Shown here: positions 3,584 through 36,858 of the stretch, piece by piece
Numbering within the stretch: the stretch's first letter is position 1
Layout of the letters: every line of letters starts with the position of its first letter
Assembly (NCBI GenBank): GCA_002842095.1
Contig: PHCB01000002.1
Span: forward strand, 1 to 64,000
Direction of reading: 5' to 3'
Source of the DNA: a candidate division BRC1 bacterium HGW-BRC1-1
Lineage (GTDB): Bacteria > Sumerlaeota > Sumerlaeia > Sumerlaeales > Sumerlaeaceae
Length of the DNA: 64,000 nucleotides
Program-made: the position numbers and the translations under genes
Notes under the pieces: model-generated
Databases searched by the model: none
What the model saw: the letters and a program-made list of their open reading frames with translations, nothing else
What the model was told of the DNA's origin: nothing

Positions 3584-5808
3584 ATGTCGTTCTGGCGCCC
3601 CGTTGCCTGTCTGATGCTTGTCTTCGCCGTGCTTCTGCACGCGCCTGCGGCCGTTGCACAGCCCCTGATACTCGACACGTTCGATGACCTCAGCTACACG
3701 ACCAGCGTGGCGCTTGCAGGCGAGGCGGTGTCTTTGTATTCCAGTAGCGAGCACTCCGAGGGTGCAAGCTCGCTGCTGGTCGACTATGACTACCTGCCCG
3801 GCGGCGTGTACACGAAGGACGCCCGCATCACCCGCACCTTTCCGGCGCCGGTCGACCTCAGCGGCCTTGCCTCTCTCGCTTTCGACATGAGCGTCGTCAC
3901 GCCTCACGCGCAAATGACACTCATCTTCGTCCTGATCGACTCAGCGGGCAATGAGACGCGCATCGTGTTGAGCAACGCCCTGGCCAGCGCCGCCACGTTG
4001 AAGACATGGCTCTTCTCGAACTCCGCCCTGGAAAAGAGCCGGTGGGCCTCTGGGGGGCGGGCCTTCAACCTGCGCGAGGTGAGCAAGATTGCATTCCGTC
4101 TGCAGAACAATGCCGACTTCACCGCCGCCGGCTCGGTGATGTTCCGCCTCGACAACCTGCGCGTGGTGAATCAGTCCAACCTGCAGCAAGCGATTTGGTC
4201 GGAGGATTTCGCCTCGTACGCCGACACCGCCGCGGTGGCCGCCGCGTGGCAACCCGCCACCGCGGGCGTAACGGCGGAGTTGGACACCGCGTCGGGCGCT
4301 GCGCTTCGCGTGCGTGCGGACGTTTCGGCCCGCTGGACCAACTATCTTGTGGCGCGCACACTGGCCGCGCCTGTCGACGTGACCGCCATGACCCACCTGG
4401 GCGTGCGGGTGAAGGGCGACACCCGTCTGGCGGCATTGGCGCCCCTGGCCAAGGTTTTCCTTGAGGATACGTCGGGCAATCGCATCATCGCGATGGTGCC
4501 CACGTGGGCCGGCATCGACCGGTGGAGCGACCTCTACCTGCCGCTGCAACGCGACGGTATCGAGAGCTTCACGGCCGCAAGCACCCTGTCGATGGGCGGT
4601 GCAAGCTGCTGGCGTCAGGACACCTACGACGCCGGCGGCTGGAGCGTCGACGCCGATCTGACCCGCATCAGCCGCGTGCTCGTGGGCGTCGAGACCCAAG
4701 CCACCGGGGCCTATCCGGTGGCCGGTGCCACGCTGCTTTTCGACGACATCCGCTTCGCCACACCCGCCGCCGTGGACACGCCGGCGGCGCTCTCTGCCGC
4801 GCTGGAGAGCGCCTCTGCGGGCGCGCTCATGTCGCTCGGCTTCGGCTCGGGGGTGTTCGGCAACGGAACCTTCCTCAATCAGGCACCCAACATGATGCAG
4901 GACGTGGCGGGGCTTATGTCTACCACACCAACGAGACCGCCGCCGCGGCCAAGATCACCGCCGTGCTGCAAAACGCCGGGGCGGCAGACGCCCACGTCAC
5001 CTTCCACCGCCGCGCCTTCCCGACTCCATCAGGCAACTACGTTCAGGTGGGCAAGAATGCGCTGCAGCAATACTATTCCACCACCGCGCCGCCGGCGTCG
5101 CTGACCATCGCGCCCGGCGCCGCCGCACTGCTGGACGCGCCCATGGACAGCACATCCGTGGCGCGCTACGCGCTGTTGCATACGATCCACGAGTTCACCA
5201 GCGACCAGCCTCTCACGTTCACCTCGGTGCTGCTGCCCGCCGCAACCAACACCCTTGCCGCGTTCCCCGGCCTCGTTTTCTCTCCCGATGATACCCATAA
5301 GCGCGAAGGCACCTTCACCACGCTGGGCCGGGCCAATGCCACGCCCTATGCCTACGACACTGCCGGCGGCATCGGGCGCGTACGCGTGGCCGACTGGGGC
5401 ACGTCGGTGGATCCTTTCGTGGAAGGGGTGGATGCCGAGACGGGCGCGGCAAGCCGACTGCTGGGCAACTACGGCGTCACCTACAACATTCGTGTTGCGC
5501 TGAGCAGCAGCGACGGGCGCAGCCTGGCGGTGATGTTTGCGCCGCCGGACAACTCATGCGGCTACGGCACCTATACCCGTTGGCAGTATCCCGACACGGG
5601 CGCCGTCGGCACGGGACTCTTTGTGCCAACCAGCGGCACCGCCCAGCCGGGCCAGGCGGGGCTCATGTGCAAGGTGTCGCCCGGAACAACGCCGCAGGTG
5701 CTGCGCATCGACACAATCCCCGCCGGATCCATGTGCCTTCCATTCGACATCCTTCTGGTGCCGTACGGAGCAGCAACCTCCGACGTGGCGGGGTGGGAGG
5801 TCTACTGA
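3584..5808 (+). pseudogene. Secreted tandem beta-sandwich protein with internal deletion and frameshift; ends GWEVY
   Basis: The ATG at 3584 has a good ribosome site (GAGGAG at 3571-3576) and starts a clear signal peptide ending in AVA-Q. The reading frame follows the intact 783-residue paralogue at 15010-17361 through two carbohydrate-binding-like beta-sandwich modules to about 4911. It then shifts frame at about 4912 and continues to the TGA at 5808. At the junction 28 residues present in the paralogue are missing, so this is a deletion of about 84 nt plus or minus one or two, not a single-base slip. The downstream frame is well conserved and ends in VAGWEVY. An assembly error is possible; a recent natural deletion is more likely because the missing block is long. 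Confidence 0.8.
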
Positions 5809-5940
5809 CCCCAGCCATGAGCGCCGTGAGGATGGCGCCGCTTCCGCAGGCCTGGGGCATCCACCGTTGGTGATGGCTGCGGCAAAGCGCATCGGGGAAC
5901 ACAGCGAGTTGAAACCAGCGCCTGCGTTAAGGCACCAGGG

Positions 5941-6954
5941 TCATTTCAAGGCCTTGTCCGGGGAAATGCCTTCCTCCAGTTTGGTCGGGAGCCGTTTGAT
6001 CACGGCATTTGTGGTCTTGTCCAATATCACAACGTGGCCGTGTCCATCGCCATAATGATCTTTATCAGATTCAAAGAATGTAACATAATGGGAGTTTACC
6101 TCGAGTAAACCTTTCCACCGCTTACCCGGGTAAACAACGGACTCTTTCCCCGACGGGTCAATCCGGATCACTCCTTGGTCAGTAATGCCCCACAATTCGC
6201 CCGTGGGTGTAAGTTCTGGTTCATAAATATCGCGGCCAGTCCACGGAAACGATTTTAGTGTGCGTGTTGTGAGGGTGTCCAGAGACAGGCGATTGGCGGA
6301 GATCGTCGGATTGTATCCCCATGTTGTGGTCCAGTAGATCACGCTGTCATCGGCGGCACACCGGCTGTTGAAATGCGTGATTTTGTAATCATCGCAGTCC
6401 GTGTCGAGCATATGCCACTCACCTTTTTTGTCACGCACCCACAAGGTTTGCTCCACTGGCCCGGCGGCAGCAATCACCGCAGCAAGCCCTTTGCTGTTAA
6501 CACAGTAGTCCCAGATATAGGAAGCCCACTCCGTGTGCCATTCGAATTTCTTGCCGTGTGGAGGCAGGCTTTCTACCACTTGCAAATTCCACGGCGGATC
6601 GTCCTCCGTCAAGAAAAACACACCCCTGTCGACAGGATTGGCGGGATCTTTGAGATAGCTTGATGATCGCGCTCGAATGCTCAATCGATCATCGGGAAGA
6701 TCGTATTGAAGAAGCAGAAATGTCTCTCCCTGCATTCCCGTATAATACAATCTCTTATTGGTCGGGTCAAAACATGAGGACCCAAAGCTTGTGCCAATAT
6801 TTGAATGTATAGTCTGCGTACGAAACCCGTTGGCCTCGTAAGGCTCCAGGATGGGTGTAGTCACCGAATCAGTGATCCAGCCCCACGACACACCCGTGCC
6901 TCCGAAGGCGATCATTAAGAAAACGATCGTGCACGTGATATTCCCGATTCTCAT
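5941..6954 (-). CDS. Secreted protein, probably beta-propeller-like
   Basis: The 337-residue product has a signal peptide (about 1-24, ending VSWG). The remainder consists of short repeated beta-rich segments with Trp and Gly-Asp turns, such as RLYYTG, GELWGITDQGVIRIDPSG and HVVILDKTTNAVI, as seen in extracellular beta-propellers. A GGAAAGG ribosome site lies about 10 nt upstream of the ATG. It is convergent with the pseudogene upstream. A decayed copy of its first 20 codons lies at 8203-8261. The exact propeller family and any ligand are not identifiable. Confidence 0.6.
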   Translation of the reverse strand: MRIGNITCTIVFLMIAFGGTGVSWGWITDSVTTPILEPYEANGFRTQTIHSNIGTSFGSSCFDPTNKRLYYTGMQGETFLLLQYDLPDDRLSIRARSSSYLKDPANPVDRGVFFLTEDDPPWNLQVVESLPPHGKKFEWHTEWASYIWDYCVNSKGLAAVIAAAGPVEQTLWVRDKKGEWHMLDTDCDDYKITHFNSRCAADDSVIYWTTTWGYNPTISANRLSLDTLTTRTLKSFPWTGRDIYEPELTPTGELWGITDQGVIRIDPSGKESVVYPGKRWKGLLEVNSHYVTFFESDKDHYGDGHGHVVILDKTTNAVIKRLPTKLEEGISPDKALK

Positions 6955-7020
6955 AACACTCGACCTTTCCGAAAGATAAAATTGCGTTTGCTTTCGTTAT
7001 GATTCGATTGATTTGGCTAC

Positions 7021-7626
7021 TTATGATCCGTGCTTGGAGTTAATGGTAGTTACCGCAACTGGGATTTGTTTTCGGGCGAATCTGTGCAAGGTCAACATCA
7101 ACAGGAAATCGTAAAGGGACAAGGCTCCTAATATAGTGAACAGCATAACTGCGTACTCACTCCACGTCTTGTTTACGATCAGCGTAATTATAAAACAGAT
7201 CATCATTAGTGTTGGAGCCTCACGTGTTACATAAAGTAGATACTCACTCACAGAACCGCGAAGGACTATGTACAGATAAGCAAAATCTTGTGAGAACCAA
7301 TAATCCTCTGAAAACGAACTCCCGTCGATCAGATTGCGTTCCGCAGGCTGTGCCTTTATGGTGAGAGGAGTGGCGAGGAGATTAATATTAAGCGACTGGG
7401 CCAGATCGATTTGGTCAATCGTTGATTTCCACCATAATAAAAAACAAATCCAGGAGATGTGGTACGCTTCCCAGAGTACCGAATTCATTACCCACTTATA
7501 CTCTTCCTGCACATGTGTACTAAAAATGGCAACGATCAAGACCAGAGCAAAGATTGCCAATAACGACACCCCAACATTATGCGCGGTTCCTTTAGTACAT
7601 AACGATGGTTGAGTTGGTGAGTTCAT
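7021..7626 (-). CDS. Four-helix integral membrane protein, unknown
   Basis: The 201-residue product has predicted membrane helices at about 19-37, 48-66, 135-155 and 158-178. A hydrophilic segment of about 60 residues lies between helices 2 and 3. There are no catalytic motifs and no signal peptide beyond the first helix. It lies between the propeller-like gene and another unknown gene, all on the minus strand but with gaps of 66 and 120 nt, so operon membership is uncertain. Confidence 0.5.
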   Translation of the reverse strand: MNSPTQPSLCTKGTAHNVGVSLLAIFALVLIVAIFSTHVQEEYKWVMNSVLWEAYHISWICFLLWWKSTIDQIDLAQSLNINLLATPLTIKAQPAERNLIDGSSFSEDYWFSQDFAYLYIVLRGSVSEYLLYVTREAPTLMMICFIITLIVNKTWSEYAVMLFTILGALSLYDFLLMLTLHRFARKQIPVAVTTINSKHGS

Positions 7627-7746
7627 ATCGAATCCCGAATTAAAGCAATCGGAGTACTTGAGCGCGTCCGTCGAGGGCGCACCCGGTGCGTGAGGATGAA
7701 AATAAAATACTCTCAGGATCTGGGGTGCTCATACGTTGTTCACATT

Positions 7747-8151
7747 TTACCCTTCATCTGCTGTCTTTCCCAAATTCTTCAGGTATGATCTGAATTGAGG
7801 GTCAGTATCTATTGAAGCCTGGAGCACGTCCGCGTTTGGCATAGGGTCTAAGGTCCTCGCACCTTCGATATTTATTAGAAGAACATCCACGTTGTCCGTC
7901 AGAAACCCCTCAAGGTGCATGTGGGCATTAACAAGAGATGGTGGGTCTGGGAAAAAACGCGCAAACTCCGGCATCTCGATCATCGTATTAAATGCATCTG
8001 TTAGAGCTTCGTGAAGCTGATTCGCAGAGTGAATACCACGATATTTATCAGGCTCTGCCGCAACACACGATGAGAGAACCGTCTGAACGGCCCAGAGCGT
8101 CGTTGTGTCCCAGCATTTTGGGGGATCAGTATTGGAAAAAAGAGAATACAT
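7747..8151 (-). CDS. Unknown 134-residue protein
   Basis: The open frame extends to 8394, but its first 81 codons are basic, low-quality coding sequence that reads antisense-like through a decayed leader copy (8203-8261). I therefore place the start at the ATG at 8151 (MYSLFSN). No ribosome site is obvious. The remaining product is soluble, acidic and Leu-rich, and no family is recognised. It may itself be a fusion of a fragment to surrounding DNA, so the call is weak. Confidence 0.35.
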   Translation of the reverse strand: MYSLFSNTDPPKCWDTTTLWAVQTVLSSCVAAEPDKYRGIHSANQLHEALTDAFNTMIEMPEFARFFPDPPSLVNAHMHLEGFLTDNVDVLLINIEGARTLDPMPNADVLQASIDTDPQFRSYLKNLGKTADEG

Positions 8152-8202
8152 CACAGTGCAGGGACGAGGCTGAACGCCCTTCCTCCTGTCTGGACCACAC
8201 CG

Positions 8203-8261
8203 TTGCGCCCGAAGGCGATCGCCAAGTGAGCGATCGTGCACTTGCAGTTTCCGGTTTTCAT
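8203..8261 (-). pseudogene. Decayed duplicate of a signal-peptide coding region
   Basis: Read on the minus strand from the CAT at 8259-8261, this matches without gaps the first ~20 codons of the gene at 5941-6954. Roughly three quarters of 60 positions are identical, including ACGATCG and GCGATCGCC-type blocks. The decayed copy reads MKTGNCKCTI and then CTIAHLAIAFG where the intact gene reads CTIVFLMIAFGG. It ends at a stop after about 36 codons. It marks a partial duplication in the interval 5.9-8.3 kb. Confidence 0.55.
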
Positions 8262-8432
8262 GACTTTGACCCGCCTTCCTCCGCCAATCTGACGGAAACG
8301 AACGGTGTGGGAAAACGCTGGCGATAAGATGTTTTTGTTGCTTGTCAGAATCCAGTTGCCGGATAATTCGATTTGTCAATAGCTGTTTCGGCATCCGAAC
8401 CCACCATCTCGAAGCGCCCTTGTTTGGGGGTG

Positions 8433-12818: not shown

Positions 12819-14399
12819 ATGCGGTTTGGTTGGCTGGTGGCAGGTATGTTGTGCGGGGCGCTCGTCGAGCCCGGGATGGGTGCGCCGCTGGCGGCGCCGC
12901 TAACGCTGGACGTGAACACGCCGCTGGAGGCGGGGATCATCGTGACCAGCGCCACCAAAGATTTCGCGCCCGGTCTGTTGGGCAAGCTGGAGCAGATCGT
13001 TGCCGGGCACGAGGGCCGCATGGGCCTGAGTGTCGTGAACGAAGACACCGGCGAGACCTTCGAGGTGAATGCCGATGCGGAATTTGTGACGGCCAGCACC
13101 ATCAAGCTGGGCGTGCTGGGCACGGCGTTTGACCTGCTCACTTCCCCGTCCGCGACCACGTTCAAGAGCTACTATTCCACCATGGTTTACGACGGATCGA
13201 CCAGCGCCGCAGGGGCGGGGTTTATCCAGAATTACAAGCTGGGCACGCGGATTGAACTGAAGGAACTGGTTCATTTCATGATCACCGCCAGCGATAACAC
13301 GGGTACCAACATGCTGACCAAATGGGTCGGCGGGCCGCAGGCGGTCAACGCGTGGCTGGCATCGAAGGGACTGGCGCGCACCCGCATGAACGCCACCATC
13401 GGAGGCGGGCAGGTGGCCGACCAGGCGCTGCGCGAGAAGTGGGGGCTGGGCGTAACGACCCCCGCAGAAATGCGACGGCTGATGCAAATGTACGCCGAGG
13501 GGAAGGCGGTCGACTCGACCACCGCTTCCGAGGAAATCCTGCGCGTGCTGGGTCACCAGTATTTCGACGACGACATTGCAAGCCAGGTGCCGCCCACGAT
13601 GTGGGTGGGCAGCAAAAGCGGCGCAGTGAACGCGTCGCGCAGCGACGTGGCCATCATGTCAACACCGGGTGGGCTGATCGTGATGGCGGTTTATACCGAC
13701 AACAATCGCGACCAACGCTGGGAGGATGACAACGCCGGCGAGGTCTCGATCCGTCGCGTGGCGAAGGAGGTCTTCGACCACTTCAACCCGGATACCAAAC
13801 CCGGAAAAGCGCAGAAGAAAACTTCGGCAGTTACATCCCCCGCAGCTCCCCGCGAGGCGCTGGGTGGGGGAGAAGCCGCTGCCGGTGCAGCAACCGATTC
13901 AACAACGACAACCACCAAAGGAGAAGTGCGCATGGAAACAGCAACGTTTGGCATGGGATGCTTTTGGGGGCCCGATGAATTGTTCCGCAAGACGCCCGGC
14001 GTGATGGAAACGGAAGTGGGTTATGCGGGCGGCGCCAAGACCAACCCCACCTATAGCGATGTATGCAACGGGAACACCGGCCACGCTGAAGTGGTTCAGG
14101 TGAAATTCGACCCGGAGAAGATCAGCTACGCGAAGTTGCTTGAGATTTTCTGGAAGTCCCACAACCCGACGACCCTCAACCGGCAAGGCCCGGACGTGGG
14201 CAGCCAGTACCGCTCGGTCATTTTCTTCCACTCGCCCGAACAAGAGAAGGCCGCCAAAGAAAGCGTGAAGCAGGCCTCGCTGATCGGTGGCTGGAAGAAC
14301 CCCGTTGTGACGCAGATTCTCCCCGCCCAGGAATTCTGGAAGGCCGAGGACTACCACCAGAAATATCTGATGAAACGCGGGCAGGACGTCTGCCACTAA
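12819..14399 (+). CDS. msrA: Exported serine hydrolase (class A beta-lactamase fold) fused to peptide methionine sulfoxide reductase A
   Basis: One 526-codon frame encodes two enzymes. Residues 1-21 are a signal peptide. Residues ~50-330 are a class A beta-lactamase/DD-peptidase-like domain with STIK (Ser93, Lys96), SDN (158-160) and KSG (266-268). The omega-loop E-x-x-L-N that supplies Glu166 in true class A enzymes is not visible, so hydrolysis of beta-lactams is doubtful. A linker rich in Ala, Gly and Thr (~335-370) leads to MsrA (372-526) with GCFWG (catalytic Cys381), DVGSQYRS and the C-terminal EDYHQKY. A strong internal ribosome site (AAAGGAG, 13917-13923) lies 8 nt before the in-frame ATG at 13932, so a cytosolic MsrA could also be made separately. 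The gene symbol refers to the second domain only. Confidence 0.88.
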   Translation: MRFGWLVAGMLCGALVEPGMGAPLAAPLTLDVNTPLEAGIIVTSATKDFAPGLLGKLEQIVAGHEGRMGLSVVNEDTGETFEVNADAEFVTASTIKLGVLGTAFDLLTSPSATTFKSYYSTMVYDGSTSAAGAGFIQNYKLGTRIELKELVHFMITASDNTGTNMLTKWVGGPQAVNAWLASKGLARTRMNATIGGGQVADQALREKWGLGVTTPAEMRRLMQMYAEGKAVDSTTASEEILRVLGHQYFDDDIASQVPPTMWVGSKSGAVNASRSDVAIMSTPGGLIVMAVYTDNNRDQRWEDDNAGEVSIRRVAKEVFDHFNPDTKPGKAQKKTSAVTSPAAPREALGGGEAAAGAATDSTTTTTKGEVRMETATFGMGCFWGPDELFRKTPGVMETEVGYAGGAKTNPTYSDVCNGNTGHAEVVQVKFDPEKISYAKLLEIFWKSHNPTTLNRQGPDVGSQYRSVIFFHSPEQEKAAKESVKQASLIGGWKNPVVTQILPAQEFWKAEDYHQKYLMKRGQDVCH

Positions 14400-14516
14400 T
14401 CCGTCAGCCTTAAACTTGAAACAAGAGCGTTCTGGCTTAAGTTCGTGAAGGAGTAACCCGGTGAGCGCTTAGCATGATGGGAATGGGAAGCGCGCGTCTA
14501 AGGCTGATTCGGCAAG

Positions 14517-14593
14517 GCGCAAGCATGGCTTGCGCAGTCCAAAGCCAACTCGAGGGTGTGCAATCTTTGGGAGTGCGGCAGCCATGCTGCCGC
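14517..14593 (+). repeat. REP-like paired palindromes, copy 2
   Basis: The same two 19-nt palindromes as at 657-730 occur here at 14517-14535 and 14575-14593, with a 39-nt spacer. The flanks AAG before the first and GCAGTCCA after it are also shared. The spacer sequences differ, so the palindromes are the conserved part. Confidence 0.8.
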
Positions 14594-14653
14594 TTTTGAA
14601 GCCATGAGGCGGCGGGGCGTGTACGCGCGGCACCATCTCAAACACTCCACCCC

Positions 14654-14718
14654 CCTATGGCGCAGCAACCGCGGGTGCGGCGGGTTGGGAAATGTATTAG
14701 CGCGGGCCGCGTTCTTGA
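14654..14718 (+). pseudogene. Remnant of the 3' end of a GWEMY-family secreted-protein gene
   Basis: These ~65 nt nearly match the last ~15 codons and following ~18 nt of the intact gene ending at 17361. They include GCGGGTTGGGAAATGTATTA (with TAG in place of TAA) and the downstream GCGGGCCGCGTT. In frame it reads PYGAATAGAAGWEMY-stop. The rest of the gene is absent. It lies just upstream of the intact family member, so it is probably a relic of a tandem duplication or of recombination between 3' ends. Confidence 0.75.
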
Positions 14719-15009: not shown

Positions 15010-17361
15010 ATGAGTCGACATCTTAATGCCATTTTCTTCGGATTGATTCTTTTACTTTGTTCGGCTTCCCCCGGCGGAGCCGCCACCACGGAAGTCCTTA
15101 TCGACGGCTTCGAGGACACCAATTACAACGTCGTAAACGCTGTACCTGGTGATTCTGTCACGCTGCAAAAGCTCTCTGCGCTCAGCCAAGGCACTTCCTC
15201 CCTTCGGTTGCGCTATAGCTATCAACCGGGTGCAGCTTGGACCAAGAGCGTATCCATCGAGAAAGTACTGTCTTCGCCGGTAGATATCTCAGGAGTGGGG
15301 AAGGTGATTCGGTTCGATGTGAGTAATTTCTGGTTCGTGAATACCGAAGTTCTGCAGCGTGATGAGCCTTTGACGCTTAATCTCGTGCTTATTGACACGG
15401 CTGGTAATGAATCGCGTGTTGTCATTCCAGAGGTTTTCAAGTGGGGGTCAATAATTAAAACTTTCGCTTTCTCAACTGGTGAGTTTACGAAGTCCCAATT
15501 GGCTACCGGTGGTCGCGCGTTTAATCTGAAGGAAATTGAGCGGGTGGCATTTCGCATTCAGAACCACAGCGACATATCAGCCCCGGGAGTGGTCAATCCG
15601 AGTTTTGATAATCTGTGTGTCGTGAGCAATCCGGATCTTTCCGAGACGAAAACCGCCGACAATTTTAACGCTTATTCTGATACCTCCGCGCTACAAAGCG
15701 TTTGGCAACCGGAAAGCCCCGCCACCAGTTTGGGCCTTGGGCCGGACGATTCCGGCGGAAGCGCTCTGCAGATGAGCGCGGATATTACCGGGCCTTCACT
15801 CACCTACTGGGTAGCTCGCAACCTGTCGGTCGAAATAGATTTGCGGAACATGACTCATATGCGCGTCCGGATGAAAGGGGATTCGCGCCTGGCTTCCTTC
15901 AACCCCTCGGCTAAGATTTTTCTCGAGGATGTATCCGGCAATCGTGCCCTGGCTTATATCGATAACTGGGGCGGAGTTGACCGCTGGAGTGACAACCATC
16001 TGCCTTTGCAGAACGATGGAATTGAACCGTTAGTAGGTGGGGGAGTGGGTGCGTTTGGCGGTGCCAGTTGCTGGCGTCAGGATTTGAATGATGCGGGTGG
16101 ACAGGCTGGAAATATTAATCTTCAGCGCGTCACAAGGATTGGCTTGGGTATCGGAACCCGGAATGCCGGGGCTTATCCCCTGACGGGAATCAACCTCGTC
16201 TTTGATGACGTGTTGTTTGGGTTCTCCCCGCATATGGAGACGCCCCAGAATCTAGCCCTTGCCCTGGAAACAGCCTCCGCCGGCGCCCCGATTCCGCTTG
16301 GATTTTCCTCCACGGATTTCGGTACAGATCGGTTTCTAAACCAAGGTCCCACCCGATTAAACGATGTGCCCGGAACATTGATCTACAGCAGTGATCCACA
16401 AAGACCTTTTTACGAGTGGGGTCTCTATTACACACCCGTCCCGGCTGGTGTTGTAAGAACTTATCTTCATCATGCGAGCCAGTTACAACAAGAGGCTAAA
16501 ATTGCAGCCACACTACGTAACCCCGGGGAAAATATAGCTCACATTAGTTTCCAGCGCCGATCGGTTCCGCCTGCGTCTGCAGACTATCTCTTGGTTGCGC
16601 GCGAAGGCGTACGTCGTTATTATGAAAATGTTTCGATGCCAGTTCCTCTTACACTGGCCCCCGGCGAGATTGCCTTGCTTGACCCCGAACTGGAAGATAG
16701 GGGTGCTTATGCTGGCCAGCTCTTGCACGCCATTCACGAATTCACGACAGATCAACCCCTCGAGTTCAAAAGCCAGATGGTCGAAAAGTCCGCTAATTCA
16801 TTAACTGTATATACGGTTTTTTATAATACTGATACTCAGCATCGAGAGGGTACCTTTGCCATGTTGGGACGCGAAAACCTCGTACCTCTGGTGTATGACA
16901 CCGCGAGTGGTATCGGTCGCGTGCGGATCGCGGATTGGGGCAGTGAAGTGGATCCCTTCTTTGAAGGGATGGATGCTACAACTGATAAGAATAGGCGCTT
17001 GTGGGGCAACTATGGGGGTACATACAAAGTTCGTTTGAATCTAACGGCGAGCGATGGGCGTTCCGTTGCCGTGGTTCAGGCTCCATCGCGTCACTCCAAG
17101 GGTTATGCAGCATATGTCCGCTGGGAAGCACCCGACACCGGTGGTGCAGGGGTTGAGCAATTTGCGCCGGCCACTGGCATGGTGGGACCTAGGCAAGGGG
17201 CTGTCGTTTGCAAATTGAGCCCGGGAAACAATCCGCTTACGCTTCGCATGGATACCATTCCCACCGCTCCAATTCCCGATGGGTCCTTGCCTGAACCAGT
17301 CGATTTCCTGCTGATTCCTTATGGCACAACCGCGGGCGTGGCGGGTTGGGAAATGTATTAA
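15010..17361 (+). CDS. Large secreted tandem beta-sandwich protein ending GWEMY
   Basis: The 783-residue intact protein has a signal peptide (about 1-24) and AAAGGA upstream of the ATG. It contains two related carbohydrate-binding-like beta-sandwich modules (about 30-205 and 210-405). Each begins with an F-[DE]-D/F-x-x-Y motif and contains an L-x-L-x-L-I-D-[TS]-[AG]-GN or F-L-E-D-x-SGNR strand. A middle region follows (about 410-600), then a C-terminal beta domain (about 600-770) that is also found alone at 36310-36858. It closes with VAGWEMY. The closest relative in the window is the deleted copy at 3584-5808. The function is unknown; surface glycan binding is a guess from the fold. It is followed by a SpoIID-like gene on the same strand. 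Confidence 0.8.
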   Translation: MSRHLNAIFFGLILLLCSASPGGAATTEVLIDGFEDTNYNVVNAVPGDSVTLQKLSALSQGTSSLRLRYSYQPGAAWTKSVSIEKVLSSPVDISGVGKVIRFDVSNFWFVNTEVLQRDEPLTLNLVLIDTAGNESRVVIPEVFKWGSIIKTFAFSTGEFTKSQLATGGRAFNLKEIERVAFRIQNHSDISAPGVVNPSFDNLCVVSNPDLSETKTADNFNAYSDTSALQSVWQPESPATSLGLGPDDSGGSALQMSADITGPSLTYWVARNLSVEIDLRNMTHMRVRMKGDSRLASFNPSAKIFLEDVSGNRALAYIDNWGGVDRWSDNHLPLQNDGIEPLVGGGVGAFGGASCWRQDLNDAGGQAGNINLQRVTRIGLGIGTRNAGAYPLTGINLVFDDVLFGFSPHMETPQNLALALETASAGAPIPLGFSSTDFGTDRFLNQGPTRLNDVPGTLIYSSDPQRPFYEWGLYYTPVPAGVVRTYLHHASQLQQEAKIAATLRNPGENIAHISFQRRSVPPASADYLLVAREGVRRYYENVSMPVPLTLAPGEIALLDPELEDRGAYAGQLLHAIHEFTTDQPLEFKSQMVEKSANSLTVYTVFYNTDTQHREGTFAMLGRENLVPLVYDTASGIGRVRIADWGSEVDPFFEGMDATTDKNRRLWGNYGGTYKVRLNLTASDGRSVAVVQAPSRHSKGYAAYVRWEAPDTGGAGVEQFAPATGMVGPRQGAVVCKLSPGNNPLTLRMDTIPTAPIPDGSLPEPVDFLLIPYGTTAGVAGWEMY

Positions 17362-17461
17362 CGCGGGCCGCGTTTTTGATGGTTAAATGCGGTTGCAGAT
17401 CGTGCAATCCATCTGCGTTAATCACGCTACCAATTCATTGCACGATAGGCGGAATTTTCTC

Positions 17462-21385: not shown

Positions 21386-21550
21386 CACAACCACCTTTTT
21401 TCCGACTGAATTCGCACCAGTTCACCTGCGCTTTTGGTACGCTATATCCGTGGTAAAGATGATGTTTTGTGTCTTGGCTGAAGTCAAACAAGTAATTGAA
21501 AGCGGACTGATTTGGTCGGTATTTTCGAGCCCGTAAGTTTGCCTGCGACA

Positions 21551-23521
21551 TTAATCATTACTGCTAATTACCCAGTTGTTGGTTTCGTCTGTTTCGGGTG
21601 TCAGGTCTGTAGAGTCTGCGATGAAACCGATTGCCCAATTCCCCGTGGGGACGGCGCCTTCAATTTGCACCGAGGTTGTTGCACCGGCGGTTAATTGACT
21701 GGTGTATACACCGCCGCCGATCTGACCGTGGGGTGTGAATGCCCCGGTCAGAGGATCAACGAGGCCGTAAAATGCTTCTGACCAAAATGCGCCTGTAGGC
21801 CCTGCTCCCGTGTTTTTTACAGTAGCATTCACGCTAACCTTATTTGGCAATCGGTTTGTTCCGTAACCCAGTACATCGAGGTCGCTTGTGGCAACGGCGT
21901 CATTTTTCAGAACGATACGGCCCGGGATTCTGAGCAGATTATACCCTCCGTTCCCGAAGGGTATTGTGTCGCCCGGATTGTCGGCCACTCCACAGCGATT
22001 TACAATCGCCACTACGGAATAAATACCGTCGGGAATACGTTCGAAGCCAAAGTCCATCGAGTAAGACTGCGTTCTGTTGGGTCCAATGCTGACCTTTTGA
22101 GATTGAAGAAGAGGAACTCCGGAGCGAAGCGTGCTTAAGCCCCCAGTCTGGGATGCAAAAAACTCAATCCACATCATGCCAGACGAAACAGGACTTCTGT
22201 TGATAAGGGTAAAATTCACTTTCAATTTATCGGATGGGCTGAGTTCCGTTGGGGCGAGTTGCGTTCCCAAAATGGATGCACTTACGATGCCGACGTCCAG
22301 GTTTGTTCCACAAGCAGATGGAGTGTTTCCGCTAAAGTGCCAGTTGTCTCGTTCCTCTGTCTCGGGCACAAGGTCGGTTGAATCGGCCATTATCGCCAGG
22401 GCGGTGTTAGTGGGGGCTGTTCCGGTTTGGGAATAACTAAATGTTGCGTTGGGCGCAAGACGTCCCACCTTGACGCCCCCGCCTATATAACCAGCGGGGA
22501 TAAAATTCCCTTCAGCGCTTAAAGACCCGTAGGCCGTCTCAATCCAGAAGCCGTAATCGGGCGTAGCAGAGGGTCCATTATTTTTAACGGTTCCTGTTAC
22601 GGTTACGGCGCTCCCATTACGAGCATAGGTTGGGTTTTGGAGCACGATGTTACTATTGGCTGCCTGGGTATTGCGTACCCTCAAACGTTTCCCTGCTAAC
22701 GGGGCCCAGTTGTCGGAGTATCTGTATTCTGTGGGCCCACCTGTTCCCGGTCGGTTGGCAAACCCTACAATGGTGTAAATGCCATCTGGCAGCCAATTGA
22801 GAGTTTGGGGAAGAGTGAAAGTATAGACGCCGCCTCCAAAGCCGTTGAGGGCCTGAGAATTCGTAACGGTGCCACCAAAACGTGACAGTGTGAATCCACC
22901 GTTATTGGATGCAAAAAATTCCGGCCAGATCGGTTTGTCTGTGCTCGGCCCTTTAACTTTCCATGTTGCTGAGGTTAGCAAAGTGCCGGGTTGTGCTGAA
23001 GCGGGGGCCGCGGGGCTGAAATCAAGCGACATCAAATCGATATTATCGCTTTCGAAAGTCCAATTAAGAACAATGGCTCCGGTTGATTGGTTGAAAGCGG
23101 CAACGGCGATTTTATAAGTAGTGTTGGGAACTGTATTGAATGTAACCGCACTTTGGGCCGGAGAACATGCATCATCGCTCGAGGCAATCTTGATCAGGGT
23201 TGCAAGTGTATTGCCTGTGTAAACGGCAAGCACGGTATCAAAATTACTGCCGCAGGTTGTAATGGTCATCTTGCCTAAGTCTGGACAGTACCAAGACCAC
23301 CAGACTGAAGCCCCTGAGCCGCTGCCTGTGTAGTGTATGGGCTCTCCCGCTTCGCGAGTCGCCTCCACGTTCGTGGCATCCAGTTGTCCGGAAGAGCCAA
23401 CAAGCGCAACCCGACTGGCAAACATATCATTGACAGGGGCCGCGGCCTGAGCCAGCGAGGCTGTGAGCAGAAAAAAAGAGAGCAAGGCTAAAGGTAGACA
23501 CGCAAATTTTTGCATCATCAT
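21551..23521 (-). CDS. Secreted protein with PPC-like and CARDB-like repeats, copy A
   Basis: The 656-residue product has the same architecture and length as its downstream neighbour at 19424-21385: signal peptide (ending AQA-A), a PPC-like domain with CGSNFDTVLAVYTG, then four CARDB-like repeats ending NNWVISSND. The two proteins align without large gaps and look well over half identical. They are separated by 165 nt, indicating a tandem gene duplication. Three consecutive Met codons make the exact start uncertain. Similar proteins are typically surface or secreted adhesins; no enzyme motif is seen. Confidence 0.75.
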   Translation of the reverse strand: MMMQKFACLPLALLSFFLLTASLAQAAAPVNDMFASRVALVGSSGQLDATNVEATREAGEPIHYTGSGSGASVWWSWYCPDLGKMTITTCGSNFDTVLAVYTGNTLATLIKIASSDDACSPAQSAVTFNTVPNTTYKIAVAAFNQSTGAIVLNWTFESDNIDLMSLDFSPAAPASAQPGTLLTSATWKVKGPSTDKPIWPEFFASNNGGFTLSRFGGTVTNSQALNGFGGGVYTFTLPQTLNWLPDGIYTIVGFANRPGTGGPTEYRYSDNWAPLAGKRLRVRNTQAANSNIVLQNPTYARNGSAVTVTGTVKNNGPSATPDYGFWIETAYGSLSAEGNFIPAGYIGGGVKVGRLAPNATFSYSQTGTAPTNTALAIMADSTDLVPETEERDNWHFSGNTPSACGTNLDVGIVSASILGTQLAPTELSPSDKLKVNFTLINRSPVSSGMMWIEFFASQTGGLSTLRSGVPLLQSQKVSIGPNRTQSYSMDFGFERIPDGIYSVVAIVNRCGVADNPGDTIPFGNGGYNLLRIPGRIVLKNDAVATSDLDVLGYGTNRLPNKVSVNATVKNTGAGPTGAFWSEAFYGLVDPLTGAFTPHGQIGGGVYTSQLTAGATTSVQIEGAVPTGNWAIGFIADSTDLTPETDETNNWVISSND

Positions 23522-29698: not shown

Positions 29699-32600
29699 TT
29701 AGAAAAGCATCCAGTCGTTGACCGACGAGGTGAGGGCAGCGGGTTCGCCGACGGTCCAGATGGACAGTCCGGTGATGCCACTGACGGTTGCCTTGTGGTT
29801 GACCGTATCGATGGTTGAGGTTCCGGGGGCAGACCAGATGCCGTTGTTGCGCAGGGCAACGAAGTTGGCTTCTGTGCCGCCGGTTACATCGCCTGCCGGG
29901 TACTGGAAGACCAGTTCGGCTGTGTAGCCACTGATGCCCGAAGCGTTGAGGTTCCAGTGGCGATCGATGGCGAGCAGTGGCTGGGTCAGCCCTGCTGCGT
30001 CTGTCGCTACGGTCTCAGCACTTACGGTGCCAGTGCCTGTGCCCGCGCCTGTGATGTTGATGCTGGCAGGAGCATACGCGCCGGTGGTGCCGACGGGGAA
30101 TTCGCGAACGCCGGTTACGGACGCATCGATGTTGCGCGAAAGGGTTCCGTTGACGAAACCAGCGGTGCGGGTGACGCTGCCGGCGACGTCGACGGTGAGG
30201 CTGTTCGATCCGGTGGCCAATTCTCCTGATTCAAGAACAAGGGAGGCACTGGTTACAAGGGGATCGGTCAGCGTTACGCCAGCGGGGTTGTTGATGGTCA
30301 AGCTGTCTACTGTCGATGGCAATGCGTTGCTGAGCACCTGGGGCATCGTTCCGTTGTAAACGAACTTTGCCGCGCCGTCATAGGTTTTGGCGCCTGCAAC
30401 GGCAACCTGAGTGGCGAGGCCACCGGCGGTTTTGACGTTCAGTGTGCCACCGGCGAGAACGGAAAGGGCACCCGCGCCACCGATGGGGTTAATGCTGGGG
30501 TTAAGCAGACCAGCCACGCTGAGTGTGCCGGCCACGGTCATGGCCGAGTCAGTGTTCAACGTGCCAAGCACCGAGGCGGTCTTTGTGGCAGGTACCGTGA
30601 TGTCCACGCCGGAGAGCGTGAGCGTCTTGCCCGCGTTCACCGTGTAGCCGGTGGCGAGGGTGTTGCCCAGGCTGGAGCCGCTGTAGGTCGTGTTGCCGTT
30701 GAACTGCACGGCGGGGTTTGCGCCCGTTTGCAGGGAGAGGCCGGTGGCGTTACCGTTGTTCGTCACGTCGCCTTCCAGCAGCACGTTGGCGCTGGTCTGG
30801 ATGGTAAGTGATGAGCCGGCTCCGATGTTCAGGTTGCCCTTCACACGAAGCGAGGTGGCGTTCGCTACGTTGGAGTAATTGGACGCCAAGCCCAAGCCTG
30901 CGTAGGAGTTGCGAACCTCGAGTCCACCGAACTGCATCGAACGGAAGACCGTCGGGTAGTTAGCCGGCACGGCAGCGGCGCCCGATGGGTACGTGTCGGT
31001 TACGTTGTTGCTGGCCGTATCCCAGGTTGTTGCACCGTCAAACACCGGGTAGCTAATCGGAGCGGCTGTCCAATCGGAAGGCCATTGTGTGGAAACGGCG
31101 ATGATGCCAGCTCCGTGCACATAGGTGCCTGCCGCGCCGAAGAAGCACGTGTTGCCGCCGCCCCAAACGTTGAAGGTCTGGGGAACGTAGGCGAAGCGCG
31201 ACGTGACATAGTTCTCAAGCACGCCGCCGTTTTGCACTACCACGTCGTTGGCGGCGGTACCGTCGCCCTTGATCACGAGGGCGTTGCCCACGGACTTCGG
31301 GTTGAAGATCCATGCGTCGCCGGTGTTGTGGCCGGTGGCCGCGGCGAATTGGACGCTGAAGCCGTCGGACATGGGGATGGGTGTTGCTGCTGCGATGGCA
31401 ACGCCGGTGGCTCCGGCCTGACCGAAGATACCAGCGGCACCGTTAGCGAACACAGTAGCGGAACCGATGTTGTTCCAGCGGATGGTCTCGATGGCGGGGG
31501 CCACGGTACCATAAGCAGGTCCGACTACCACGTCGGCGTTGGTTTTCGCATAGCTGACGCTTGCCGCGGCAACTGCGGTTACGGTGTAAGTTCCGTCGAA
31601 CGCGGGGTCAGCCGGGTTGAGGGCGACGGTAATCGTGTCACCTATGGCCAGGTTGTTTGCGTTCGTGGCAAATGCGGACAACGTGCCCAGCGTGGCCACG
31701 TTGGCGGTGATTGCCTTGGTCGTGACGGCGCTGATGCCCTTCAGGATTTCCACGCGGAAGCGGGGCGCGGTGCTGTCATCCTTGGTGGCGGGCAGCGCGT
31801 AGGCGCCGGTCACAGAGATGTCGCTGAGGCCTGCACCGTTGAACTGGAGAGGCGTGCCGCAAGCTTCACCTTCGCCCGATGCGCGCAGTTTGATGGTGGC
31901 TGCGTTGGCGGCGTCGATGGTGAGTGTGCGGCAGATGACGGTGTGAAGACCGGCGATTTGAACGGTGTAGGCACCGGCCACACTGCTGTGGTCGAGCACT
32001 ACGTCGTTATTGGTGGTGGGCACGCCGTCGGGGTTCCAGTTGGCGCCATCGGTCCATTTGTTGCTGCTTGCGCCACCGTCCCACGTCTTGGCGGAGGGAG
32101 CGACGACGGCCGGCACCGAGTAGGAACCGACATACTGGCAGGTGGGCATGGCAAAGAAGCGGCCGCTGCGGGCGGTCTGGTCGTCCCAGGCGATGTCGCC
32201 GCTGCCGTTGCCGTTGCTACGTACCCAGTTTTCACGGGCGCCCGTGTTGTCGACATACGCAGCCGAGGGATACCCGGCGGTGACGTCGGCGAGAGCTGCA
32301 CGACCGTAGCCATTGATGGCGTCGGGGTGGCCGGAGGTACCGCGCTCGATGTAGGCGTAATACTTCTTGCCGCTCACGGTTTCTGCACGGCCACCGGAGT
32401 TGCTGGTAATCACGCCGCTGTTGTAGTCGCCAGGCGACACGGCTTGAAGCGTGGGTGTGCGGGCTGCACCGGCGTTATCCCACGTGCCGGTTTCTGCACT
32501 TGTGGAAACGATGATGTTGCCGCCCATGCCTTCGACGAAAATTCCACCAGCGTTCGCGCTTACGTTGTTGGGGCAGTTTCCGGTCAACGTGATCTCGTTG

Positions 32601-33718
32601 GCGGCGCTTACCGCTGCTGTGTTTTCCGTGTAAAGGAGCTTGTAAACCCGGCTGAGAGGTGCCGCGGCTCCCTGGTAGGGGCGCAGAGTGTAAAGCTCCA
32701 CCGCACCCAGGCCGTCTGCAACGACGTCGAACGTGTCGCCGATGCGGGCGTTGTTAGCAGCGATGGCTGCGGCGGCAGGTAGACGTGGACCCACAGCAAA
32801 GGTAGAAGGTCCTGTCGCACTGAGGGCGGTGTTCCGCTGGATGACCACCGGGACGGCGCTTTCGCTGGCCCAGTAATATACGGCGAACACGTCCGTGAGG
32901 CTGTTGGTGTTGATCGAGAGCGAACAGGCGTAAATCTTGCCGTTCACCGCGCGAATCTTGTCCAGCGACACCGTGCCTGTGACAGCGATGTTCGTGGTGC
33001 CGCCGGTCGGAGTGGCTGCGATGTCCGCACCCGTCTTGGCGAATGTGAAGTCATTGGCCGTCGGAACGCCGGTCACCGTCACCACGCCGTCGATGGTTGT
33101 ATCGGGCGGGTTACACATGACAAACACCGATTGGTTCAATGCGAGGCCGTGGGGCTGGACTGTGGTCAGGGTAACCACGTTGGTGGCGCGTGCCTTCGAG
33201 GAAATGTCGGCTCCCATCTTCAACTCGCCAACGTCGGTGCCGTCGAAGTTGACGGCATGAACACCAGCGGTCAATGCAGCCTGGCCGCGCGCCACGAGGA
33301 CGTGACCGGTGGCTTGGTTAAACGCCAGACCGCGGTTTTCGTAGCTGGTGCCCAGCCAGAAAACACGGGCTGTGCCAGCCACGCTGGTCAGCGGACTGTT
33401 AGCCGCCGTGCGGGCATAAGTGAAACTCGTGGCTGAAGGAACGGCGACGATGGAGAATGCGGCATCCTTCGGGGCGATGTTATCTGTGACAGCAGAACCA
33501 TCGGTGGTCACGTAGACTTGCTCACCGATGGCGAAATTATGCGGGGCCGCGGTGTTGATGGTCACCACGTTCGCTGTGAGTTGCTTGGATACGATGGTGG
33601 CGCTTTTAAGAACTTGAGGCGCCTCCAATTTCCAATTTTCCGTCAATGCCCCCAAGCTGGGCGTTGCCGGTACCACCAATGCCATTAATAAAAGCAGTAA
33701 AAGGCTTTTGCGTTTCAT
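29699..33718 (-). CDS. Very large secreted repeat protein ending NDWMLF
   Basis: The product has 1339 residues from the ATG at 33718, with a signal peptide (MKRKSLLLLLLMALVVPATP). Three modules of about 70 residues, beginning near 45, 178 and 665, share A-N-V-V-T-[IL] / G-x-x-V-T-V-x-x-V-P-[ST]-A-x-x-F-[TS]-[YF]-A-[KR]-T. Further on is a parallel-beta-helix-like region with T-, G- and N-rich strand repeats (about 850-1200), and a final beta domain. It closes with VNDWMLF. The composition (Ala, Thr, Gly, Val, Asn) and lack of Cys are typical of cell-surface proteins. The gene is followed by its own terminator. No enzymatic motif is seen. It may be an adhesin or surface-layer component. Confidence 0.75.
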   Translation of the reverse strand: MKRKSLLLLLLMALVVPATPSLGALTENWKLEAPQVLKSATIVSKQLTANVVTINTAAPHNFAIGEQVYVTTDGSAVTDNIAPKDAAFSIVAVPSATSFTYARTAANSPLTSVAGTARVFWLGTSYENRGLAFNQATGHVLVARGQAALTAGVHAVNFDGTDVGELKMGADISSKARATNVVTLTTVQPHGLALNQSVFVMCNPPDTTIDGVVTVTGVPTANDFTFAKTGADIAATPTGGTTNIAVTGTVSLDKIRAVNGKIYACSLSINTNSLTDVFAVYYWASESAVPVVIQRNTALSATGPSTFAVGPRLPAAAAIAANNARIGDTFDVVADGLGAVELYTLRPYQGAAAPLSRVYKLLYTENTAAVSAANEITLTGNCPNNVSANAGGIFVEGMGGNIIVSTSAETGTWDNAGAARTPTLQAVSPGDYNSGVITSNSGGRAETVSGKKYYAYIERGTSGHPDAINGYGRAALADVTAGYPSAAYVDNTGARENWVRSNGNGSGDIAWDDQTARSGRFFAMPTCQYVGSYSVPAVVAPSAKTWDGGASSNKWTDGANWNPDGVPTTNNDVVLDHSSVAGAYTVQIAGLHTVICRTLTIDAANAATIKLRASGEGEACGTPLQFNGAGLSDISVTGAYALPATKDDSTAPRFRVEILKGISAVTTKAITANVATLGTLSAFATNANNLAIGDTITVALNPADPAFDGTYTVTAVAAASVSYAKTNADVVVGPAYGTVAPAIETIRWNNIGSATVFANGAAGIFGQAGATGVAIAAATPIPMSDGFSVQFAAATGHNTGDAWIFNPKSVGNALVIKGDGTAANDVVVQNGGVLENYVTSRFAYVPQTFNVWGGGNTCFFGAAGTYVHGAGIIAVSTQWPSDWTAAPISYPVFDGATTWDTASNNVTDTYPSGAAAVPANYPTVFRSMQFGGLEVRNSYAGLGLASNYSNVANATSLRVKGNLNIGAGSSLTIQTSANVLLEGDVTNNGNATGLSLQTGANPAVQFNGNTTYSGSSLGNTLATGYTVNAGKTLTLSGVDITVPATKTASVLGTLNTDSAMTVAGTLSVAGLLNPSINPIGGAGALSVLAGGTLNVKTAGGLATQVAVAGAKTYDGAAKFVYNGTMPQVLSNALPSTVDSLTINNPAGVTLTDPLVTSASLVLESGELATGSNSLTVDVAGSVTRTAGFVNGTLSRNIDASVTGVREFPVGTTGAYAPASINITGAGTGTGTVSAETVATDAAGLTQPLLAIDRHWNLNASGISGYTAELVFQYPAGDVTGGTEANFVALRNNGIWSAPGTSTIDTVNHKATVSGITGLSIWTVGEPAALTSSVNDWMLF

Positions 33719-34218
33719 GATACTTGTTTTGATCCTCCGGATCGAGTATGAACAGCGACTCCCCATTTGAGCTGTTCGAGTGCCGACGAAGGCGGCCCTT
33801 TGCTAAAAAACCGCAGCGGCTGCACAAGGGGCTGAAATGTTGAAAAACGTTTAACCCGTGAAAGGATGATTTACAAGCGGATTTTTTGATTTGATAGTGG
33901 GATGTCTGCCCAAGGATTGAGTGACCATGAACTCCAATCTCCCATGAATAAAGGACGAAACCTAAAGAAGGGCGGGGGGGTATCGGGCAGTTTTACAACG
34001 TCGCAAAAATATCAGGTCGGCTTAGATTTCCAGCGGTGCCTATAAGATTTTGTCCGTCCGAATGAGGCAATAGCGCCCGCTCCTCCCGTGATAATGCTAA
34101 AGAGATGGATGGTCGCTTGAGAGGTCAGGCAGAACGCGTGGCGTATGCGCTTTGAGGTGACCAGCGAAGGCGCCGGTCCCACATTTCAAAGCACGGATGA
34201 TTAACATCCTGAGGGGTT
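33719..34218. other. 500-nt gap upstream of the large repeat-protein gene
   Basis: It holds the leader of the gene starting at 33718 and the inverted copy of the GACCGGCG hairpin repeat (34159-34184). No ORF with a credible start or composition is seen. Confidence 0.5.
34159..34184 (-). repeat. Short hairpin repeat, ATGTGG-GACCGGCG type, copy 2
   Basis: On the minus strand this reads ATGTGG-GACCGGCG-CCTT-CGCTGGTC, an 8-bp stem with one G-T pair. It shares the first 14 nt with the copy at 387-412. Confidence 0.6.
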
Positions 34219-34249
34219 AAAAAAAGAGGCAGGCACGGATGCCTACCTC
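34219..34249 (-). terminator. Terminator of the phosphodiester glycosidase gene
   Basis: On the minus strand, GAGGTAGGCA/TGCCTGCCTC (one mismatch) with a CCG-type loop is followed by TTTTTTT. It lies 19 nt after the stop at 34268. Confidence 0.8.
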
Positions 34250-34267
34250 CTTATGTTGTTTTGCAGA

Positions 34268-36091
34268 TTAGTACAGCGACCAATCCGGAACTGTTGCCAG
34301 CGGGCTGACGTAGTCGAACCGCAGGGCGCCGGAGTAGTAGCGGTTGCCTGTGATGGTTTCGTTAATGATGCGGACGGAGTGCACGCCCACGCTGCCGCTG
34401 GAGCCGGTGCCGAAGGCAAACTGGCCCAGAGTCTGCCAAGTGTTGGCGCCCACGAGCTGGTTCAGCGAGACGGTGTTGGAGCCGCTGAGGTGGTTCACCT
34501 TGTATTGCACTGAGTTCAGATTGTTTGTGCTGGCCGGGTAGGTGGCTTCGACTTTGTATACTCCGGCCACGTCGAAGATGGGTTTGAAGTCGGCATACTT
34601 GCCCAGCGTGGAAGCGCCCGTGTAGCGCTGGGAGCCGCCGTTGCTGACGCCGGTGGCGGTGAAGCTGACGGTGGAGTTAGCCCACTGGCCGGCCGGCTCC
34701 ACGAGCCACTGGTTATTGGGTCCGGTGGGGGTTCCCTGTACGATGATGAGCGGCGGAGCGCCCCCCAGCGGCGGACGCACCGTCACGCGCACGCGCAGCT
34801 CGTTGTCGGCGGGGCCGAAATATCCGCTGGTGGTGTTCCACAGGGCGAAATTCTCCTCCATAAAGGTGTCGCTGGCCACGGTGGGCGACTTCAGCGCCAG
34901 GGTGAAGACGCCGGTCTGATCCGGAGCCACGGTGGTGGGGCTGAGGGAATAGAACGTGTTGAGTTGCCCCGCGGGGATGAAGGCGCTGGTGCGCCCGAAC
35001 GCACGGCTGGGCACCACGGCCACATTGGCGGCGGTCCACGTCTCGGTGCCGATGTTCGTGTAGGTGGCCGTGACGGTCAGCGTTTCGTCGCTGCGGGTGA
35101 GGGTGTTGTAGCTGAGGTTGGTGAGCCGCCCGTCCCAAGCGAGGGGGGCGACAGCGGTGGACTTGACCACGAGGGAGTTGGCGGCGCCGCGCTCGCCTTG
35201 GTGGTCGTAAGCGCTGTTGTCGCTGGGGTAGTTCACGACGCCGTTAAACGGCTCGCCTGCGGCCCACATGGTGGTGGAGCCGCCGCCGTCGAGGTTCATG
35301 GCGTTGTCGCAGCCGATGGCCTGCATCACCTGGGCCAGTTCGGTGCATGACATGCCTGCGGCCTCGGCGGTGCGTCCGTCCACGGTGAGCAGCACGAGGG
35401 TATTGGAGGCATTGATCTTGCCCACGGCGGTGCGCGGGTGGCGCAGGTTGGCGTGGTCGTTGGTCGGGTCGTAGGTCTCGATGACGCCATTGTCGATGAG
35501 GATGGGGCCGGAGATCATCATGTTCTGCCACGAGCCGACGCGGTTGATCCACCCGCCCGACTTGCGCATGATGGTCACGTCGCTGGTGTTGTTGAACACG
35601 AGGCCCTGGAGGAAATTGTTCACGTTGGTCCCGTCGAACGTGTGCACCGTGGTGCCGGCCGCGCGCAGGAAGGTGGTGCCGCCGCCCCAGGGGAGGGTGG
35701 GCTGGGTCGAGTCGTAGCTCAGCGTATTGAAGTAAGTGCCGTTGATTGCCGCCTTCGCGCCGGTGACGGTGGGCGCCATGGTGCTGGTGGGTGCGCGCGG
35801 ATAGTCGGGGCTGCTGACTCCGGGGCTGGGGCCAACATAGGAGTTGCGATAGGTGATAGCCATATCCACGTTGGGGTTGTTGAGATCTACCAGCATGTAC
35901 GAGACGCTTTGCTTGGCGGAGAAGAGGCTGTTAAACTGATAATAACGCCAGATGATGCCGTCGCCCACGGGGCGCTCGAACCAGATGGCGCTGTTCCAAT
36001 TGGCCGGCTGAGCCTGCGCGAAAGAAGTGAGAAGCAGCGCAACGCCCAGGGATAATAAGAGGCCGAAGCGGGGGAGAAAAGATTGTTTCAT
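34268..36091 (-). CDS. Secreted phosphodiester glycosidase (NAGPA-like) ending PDWSLY
   Basis: The 607-residue product has a signal peptide ending AQA. Residues ~60-310 match the NAGPA/phosphodiester glycosidase domain: AAINGTYF, then RTAVG, LLTVDGRT, and AMNLDGGGSTTM at about 262-275. This family uncaps or hydrolyses sugar-1-phosphodiester linkages in surface polymers or lysosomal tags. A CARDB- or FN3-like domain follows (about 320-450), then a golvesin/xanthan-lyase-type beta-sandwich (about 470-592) with VAGVYKVEATYPAS and a YYSGALRFDYV end. It closes with TVPDWSLY. GGAAAGGTGA is a good ribosome site. Its own terminator follows. Confidence 0.85.
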   Translation of the reverse strand: MKQSFLPRFGLLLSLGVALLLTSFAQAQPANWNSAIWFERPVGDGIIWRYYQFNSLFSAKQSVSYMLVDLNNPNVDMAITYRNSYVGPSPGVSSPDYPRAPTSTMAPTVTGAKAAINGTYFNTLSYDSTQPTLPWGGGTTFLRAAGTTVHTFDGTNVNNFLQGLVFNNTSDVTIMRKSGGWINRVGSWQNMMISGPILIDNGVIETYDPTNDHANLRHPRTAVGKINASNTLVLLTVDGRTAEAAGMSCTELAQVMQAIGCDNAMNLDGGGSTTMWAAGEPFNGVVNYPSDNSAYDHQGERGAANSLVVKSTAVAPLAWDGRLTNLSYNTLTRSDETLTVTATYTNIGTETWTAANVAVVPSRAFGRTSAFIPAGQLNTFYSLSPTTVAPDQTGVFTLALKSPTVASDTFMEENFALWNTTSGYFGPADNELRVRVTVRPPLGGAPPLIIVQGTPTGPNNQWLVEPAGQWANSTVSFTATGVSNGGSQRYTGASTLGKYADFKPIFDVAGVYKVEATYPASTNNLNSVQYKVNHLSGSNTVSLNQLVGANTWQTLGQFAFGTGSSGSVGVHSVRIINETITGNRYYSGALRFDYVSPLATVPDWSLY

Positions 36092-36309
36092 GGGAAGCCA
36101 TCACCTTTCCGGTGAAATATTTTTGGGTCGACATCACAGACTTCAGCGCGAGATCGCCAGGTGCGATGGGGAAAGATGACAGGTCGGCAGAGGCACCATG
36201 GGGACGCCCGCAATGCGGTTTGGGAGATCAAACCAAATGGGGCAGGCGGTGAGAGTGATATGTCAAAGAAAAATGGGGTGTTAGAGAGCTAAAGCCGGAT
36301 CAGTGGTAA

Positions 36310-36858
36310 AATCCTGAAACCCGTTGCAGAACAAGAGTGATGCCGAGGGATGGGTTCAACCGGCAGGGGACGTTCCTCTCGTATGCAAAGGAAAACGCCA
36401 CGCCCTACAGCTGGACGTCGGCCAATGGCATGCGGCTCTTCAAGATCGGGAATCCCCTGGCGGCTTACGATCCCGACATTGCGGGCTATGACGCCGAGCG
36501 GTCGGCTGCGACGCAGCTGCGGGGAAGTTACGCGGTGACTTATAAAATCCGGGTGAACGTATCGAGCAGCAACGGCAAGCGTCTGGCAGTGTTGCTTAAC
36601 CCGCGAGGGGGGGCGTATGCAGGTTACATCCGCACGTCGCTGGCGGGTGGTCCGTCCACGGGACAGCTCCTGCCGTCGGCGACATTGAACATGGGCGATA
36701 ACACCAAGGCGATCGTTTGCGCAAAGATACCGTTGTCGTCCACGCCGCAAACGCTGCTCATCGAACTGATTCCCGCCGGAGCATCGAGCCTTCCCTTCGA
36801 GTTGATTCTCACCCCGTATTCGGCACCGGCGCAAGTGGACGATTGGACCCTATATTGA
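36310..36858 (+). pseudogene. Truncated 3' fragment of a GWE[VM]Y-family gene, ending DDWTLY
   Basis: This is an open frame without a credible start; a stop lies in frame at 36307. It encodes about 170 residues homologous to the last domain of the 783-residue protein: REGTF versus RQGTF, then the shared GNYG-x-TYK-[VI]-R / GSYAVTYKIRVN segment, SSSNGKRLAV, and a PFELILTPY end. It finishes with QVDDWTLY. About 600 N-terminal residues, including the signal peptide, are missing. It may be a pseudogene left by deletion; expression as a short protein from the GTG at 36337 cannot be excluded. Confidence 0.7.

Follow-up and report, generated by a model that had tools for sequence, protein, structure and literature searches.

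The window analysed here, a stretch of 64,000 nucleotides from contig PHCB01000002.1 of the candidate division BRC1 bacterium HGW-BRC1-1 (Sumerlaeota), contains five reading frames which end in the strict motif V-x-[D/E/G]-W-x-[L/V/I/M]-[Y/F] directly before the stop codon. The first of these to be considered, identified from its ORF and by comparison with its paralogues, encodes an exported protein of 783 aa of a tandem beta-sandwich family on the forward strand (15010..17361), with a signal peptide and the C-terminal tag VAGWEMY (17338..17358). Profile scans of this protein returned no Pfam or NCBIfam matches, a first homologue scan with it as query returned no relatives, and its AlphaFold model was shallow (pLDDT 45). 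A frameshifted paralogue lies at 3497..5808 on the same strand (frame 3497-5104, then frame 4465-5808) and ends in VAGWEVY (5785..5805), and a 5'-truncated paralogue without a signal peptide lies at 36337..36858, also on the forward strand, and ends in VDDWTLY (36835..36855). These two damaged copies may reflect paralogue decay or an assembly error. On the reverse strand, an exported protein of 1355 aa (29699..33766), for which every Pfam family was below the cut-off in the profile scan, ends in VNDWMLF (29702..29722). The fifth frame, also on the reverse strand (34268..36091), encodes an exported phosphodiester glycosidase of 607 aa, in which the Pfam scan detected a NAGPA domain (PF09992) and a Golvesin_C domain (PF25275), followed by the tag VPDWSLY (34271..34291). 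All of these C-termini, read from the translations, were as listed in the first-pass annotation of the window.

Among named homologues of the NAGPA protein, the closest belongs to a Candidatus Sumerlaeota genome (58% identity), and homologues of this protein keep the tag while the flanking sequence varies. In the AlphaFold model of this protein the tag lies beyond the folded C-terminal domain, in a region with a pLDDT below 50 (overall pLDDT 56, from a shallow alignment). The tail with the tag is probably exposed and flexible.

The first-pass annotation had described the motif as shared by unrelated secreted proteins. This was found to hold for three independent tagged families and not for five carriers, as sequence comparison placed the proteins ending at 5808, 17361 and 36858 in a single homologous family. 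A sixth occurrence, previously noted as a remnant, is a 53-bp stretch on the forward strand (14666..14718) ending in AAGWEMY with a stop codon at 14698-14700; it is 92% identical to 17327-17379 through the tag, the stop codon and the 3' flank, and is a DNA duplicate, not an independent carrier. As three of the carriers are homologous, two of these being damaged, and the remnant arose as a copy of the DNA, the window by itself is weaker evidence than it first appeared, and it is the genome-wide picture that makes the case. Other features were observed in the window. A repeat of about 84 bp is present at 14514-14596 and 654-733 (80% identical), and the frame at 12819-14399 appears by eye to fuse a serine beta-lactamase-like domain to a peptide methionine sulfoxide reductase (GCFWG motif). 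The CARDB-like proteins of the window form a tandem pair of equal length (19424-21394 and 21551-23521) and lack the tag, as had been stated.

The 3.77 Mb host genome was surveyed by sampled stretches and by pattern searches, with genes and signal peptides called by simple scripts (signal peptides by a home-made rule, not by SignalP). Thirty-six ORFs with the strict C-terminal motif were found, falling into 29 sequence-unrelated groups. When the pattern plus a stop codon was searched in the DNA there were 33 matches, compared with none for the reversed-pattern control, and the synonymous codons varied between the matched genes. Among 652 sampled host proteins the strict motif ended 23, compared with 0.01 expected from shuffled tails, a count that includes some stretches picked for holding a tag. 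In the window and 20 pre-set stretches taken together, the tag was present on 3 of 97 signal-peptide genes, all three within the window, and on none of 277 others. The motif is also tightly bound to the end of the chain: in 915 sampled proteins (330,669 residues), 50 of its 52 occurrences were at the exact C-terminus and another was one residue before it. When the pattern was relaxed to a W-x-[LVIMF]-[YF] ending, nearly all of the long frames still had a signal peptide, and they kept the V at -7. The first-pass annotation had made its proposal depend on enrichment at the C-terminal end of exported proteins, and genome-wide the motif was strongly concentrated at exactly this position.

Altogether, 114 carriers fell into 66 unrelated groups. 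With one representative taken for each group, the information was confined to the last 9-10 residues, and no conserved positions were found upstream of about -10. The conserved positions are -7 (V), -5 (D/E/G), -4 (W), -2 (L/V/I/M) and -1 (Y/F), five positions for which the search pattern itself selects; position -9, which is outside the search pattern, was A, S, T or V in 65 of the 66 representatives. The consensus, as read from these sequences, is [A/S/T]-x-V-x-[D/E/G]-W-x-[L/V/I/M]-[Y/F]-COOH. A tagless paralogue (L104:6434-7855) stops exactly where its tagged paralogues run on into the tag. Descent of the carriers from one C-terminal domain, or the spread of a mobile DNA repeat, would explain the three paralogous carriers and the duplicated remnant of the window. 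Genome-wide this explanation is contradicted by the 66 unrelated groups, by the differing synonymous codons and by the lack of conservation further upstream, and it is considered highly improbable. A single homologous C-terminal domain, which had been named as the alternative to a tag, was likewise not borne out, as a Pfam scan of 97 carriers detected 42 families, each in at most 6 carriers.

The carrier domains include Golvesin_C, beta-helices, CBM9, LamG, NAGPA, M23, S8, deacetylase, amylase and RCC1. A signal peptide was called in 76 of 83 complete carriers by the home-made rule; of the seven negatives, two were the damaged genes of the window, and in the other five a signal peptide is visible by eye. 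A further membrane helix was present in 1 of 76 carriers, compared with 92 of 230 untagged signal-peptide-like proteins, and the two matches to a lipobox regex among the carriers were not convincing. No hydrophobic 17-mer was found in the last 45 residues of any of the 114 carriers, and 15 of them have any K or R in the last 9 residues. Carrier genes are mostly solitary, with a median upstream gap of 211 bp compared with 66 bp, and no common upstream DNA motif, of the kind present at PEP-CTERM genes, was found at them. As a motif, the tag is short, modular and strictly C-terminal, occurs on exported proteins that are soluble, and is conserved across lineages.

As the tag ends in an aromatic residue, it might be read as a beta-signal for the BAM complex, with the carriers being outer-membrane barrels. 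However, the spacing differs, as stated in the first-pass annotation, and the BamA proteins encoded in these genomes have the classical beta-signal at their C-terminus (IFHFTLSSAF in the host). Those carriers whose domains are known are enzymes, lectins, propellers and Ig-like proteins, with no barrels among them. The beta-signal reading is contradicted by these BamA ends and carrier domains, and its probability is virtually negligible. The free C-termini of typical PDZ ligands have hydrophobic or aromatic residues. The free C-terminus of the tag is of this kind, which would be compatible with a C-terminal degron or PDZ ligand recognised by a periplasmic protease in quality control. However, the tag is limited to long and diverse exported enzymes and binding proteins, the constraint extends nine residues inward, and it is implausible that some 35 secreted proteins would all bear a constitutive degron; this function is therefore very unlikely.

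Of the 40 Sumerlaeota genomes, 28 contained the strict tag. It was also present in 13 of 14 genomes of a second phylum (that of genome G319), and in a third lineage represented by genome G304. These were the only three lineages standing out in the 386 genomes scanned, and the reversed-pattern control was near zero across genomes. There were 33 tags in the host genome, 45 in G003 and up to 34 per genome in the second phylum, a multiplicity that resembles that of known sorting tags. No tag was found in small samples of the Sumerlaeota families f2, f8, f10 and f11. Relaxed forms were observed in genomes in which the strict form was absent, namely IEDWHLY, TVEDWMLFEY and STDHWQLYK in G039 (L306-L309), SVREWMLWDE in G020 (L310) and SAYWHLY in G015 (L318). 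Relaxed tags have a shifted spacing or 1-3 (rarely more) residues past the motif (e.g. VEDWMLFEY, VREWMLWDE), and as such residues follow the motif in other families, a free terminal carboxylate is not required everywhere. In family f3 (L292-L305; G018 and G009), exported proteins end in [VI]PA[EG][LVI]xx[LF]xx[ED], an ending that is borne by Golvesin_C, carboxypeptidase-regulatory-like and lectin-like proteins and may be a diverged form of this tag. Golvesin_C (PF25275) is amplified in the 40 Sumerlaeota genomes, with up to 45 matches per genome. A very long exported protein of G015 (L318:13800-18153) has a dockerin-like C-terminus, DVNGDGTVDVGDVMMLINQI.

No description of such a tag was found in a literature search or in Pfam and NCBIfam, and the papers on Sumerlaeota that were consulted made no mention of one. 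The last 35 residues of 10 tails gave no NCBIfam match at E-values up to 10, although the HMMER filters weaken a search with sequences this short. Together with the lack of a helix and of a basic tail, this agrees with the earlier statement that the motif differs from the known C-terminal tags.

Candidate machinery was also searched for. The exosortase family PF09721 was detected in 4 of 40 Sumerlaeota genomes, of which two are among the 28 with the tag; the strongest exosortases were those of G008 and G023, both without the strict tag. In the host genome (L230, G000:C23:29426-30151) and in G005 (L231) the exosortase adjoins a PEP-CTERM protein. At both loci a divergent exosortase and a single PEP-CTERM protein (PEPETWA, a helix and a basic tail) form an apparent one-to-one pair, besides which the two genomes otherwise use the new tag. 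An exosortase as partner of the tag was ruled out by this distribution and by the pairing with its own PEP-CTERM protein. SprA_N (PF14349) had no matches in the 40 genomes, but it had none in the control genomes either, so that there was no positive control. The neighbouring genes of the carriers included no recurrent dedicated partner, no receptor, protease or transporter for the tag was found among the candidates searched for, and type II pseudopilins were not consistently enriched near tags.

These results bear on the possibility of covalent processing, in which an enzyme would cut near the V-x-D-W core and attach a lipid or glycan anchor at the C-terminus so formed, in the manner of sortases, exosortases and the type IX sortase. 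The presence of one motif on many unrelated substrates per genome is consistent with such an enzyme, and the small residue at -9 could be its cleavage site. However, the transmembrane helix and the basic tail needed by the known membrane transpeptidases were absent from all 114 carriers, and neither the exosortase distribution nor the SprA_N result, read without its positive control, favours processing of this type, which is regarded as rather unlikely. A tag that plugs non-covalently into a common surface scaffold, as a dockerin-like assembly motif and not a secretion signal, might account for the fixed hydrophobic and aromatic residues of a probably exposed tail (in a low-confidence model), and for the dockerin-like C-terminus in the related genome G015, from which strict tags are absent. 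As no scaffold candidate was found and the exact terminal position would be unusual for a docking module, docking is given a still lower probability.

The reading that we favour, and consider fairly probable, is that the tag is a short sorting signal without a helix, placed at the C-terminus of soluble proteins exported by Sec and recognised by a receptor in the envelope, which either delivers these proteins to the cell surface or retains them there. The existence of the tag is well supported, and from it we infer the receptor and the destination. Carriers would be exported by Sec and their signal peptide removed, as suggested by the signal peptides and by the lack of a lipobox and of membrane helices. 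The folded protein would then reach the periplasm with the tag on a flexible tail, as in the low-confidence model. At the end of the chain, the tryptophan and the last, aromatic residue would be bound by an envelope receptor, most likely one that lies in the outer membrane or close to it, a step proposed because the spacing is fixed and the position exactly terminal. This receptor would finally either bring the protein through the outer membrane or retain it at the surface, as the types of carrier, judged by their domains, suggest. The same domain families bear lineage-specific versions of the tag, which suggests that receptor and tag change together. More tentatively, and with somewhat less confidence than in the sorting signal itself, the tag might belong to an undescribed secretion or surface-anchoring pathway that reads a helix-free C-terminal peptide on soluble periplasmic proteins in Sumerlaeota and at least two other lineages, where co-divergence of tag and receptor would have given variants such as VPA[EG]LxxLxxE in f3. 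The cautious wording of the first-pass annotation, a tag for surface sorting, anchoring or processing, is supported as far as the tag is concerned, and its function would be one of these.

A short C-terminal motif on many unrelated exported proteins of one genome is the general mark of a sorting signal, and the tag presents exactly this pattern. In type I secretion, acidic and then hydrophobic residues are found at the extreme C-terminus of substrates that have no signal peptide. The new tag also ends the chain with acidic and then hydrophobic residues, whereas its carriers have signal peptides. In type IX secretion (T9SS) the signal is a folded domain of about 80 residues; like the new tag it is a C-terminal signal on soluble Sec-exported proteins, with similar carriers (hydrolases and lectin-like domains), but the new tag is conserved over about the last 9-10 residues and is not a folded domain of that size. 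The PEP-CTERM/exosortase (EpsH) system shares with it the presence of one C-terminal motif on many unrelated signal-peptide proteins and genes that are often solitary (PMC1569441), but the new tag has no Pro-Glu-Pro, transmembrane helix or basic tail, and exosortase is missing from 26 of the 28 tagged genomes. MYXO-CTERM/myxosortase and GlyGly-CTERM/rhombosortase likewise mark many surface proteins per genome or phylum (PMC11980579, PMC3237569); their signals are tripartite with a helix, whereas the new tag is a linear stretch of 7-9 residues at the chain end. It would mark the likely surface and extracellular proteome of poorly known bacteria. The sortase, exosortase, rhombosortase, myxosortase and type IX export systems were all traced from C-terminal tags that are helix-anchored or full domains, and a helix-free linear tag of 7-9 residues, on unrelated proteins in more than one phylum, implies a new reader in the envelope.
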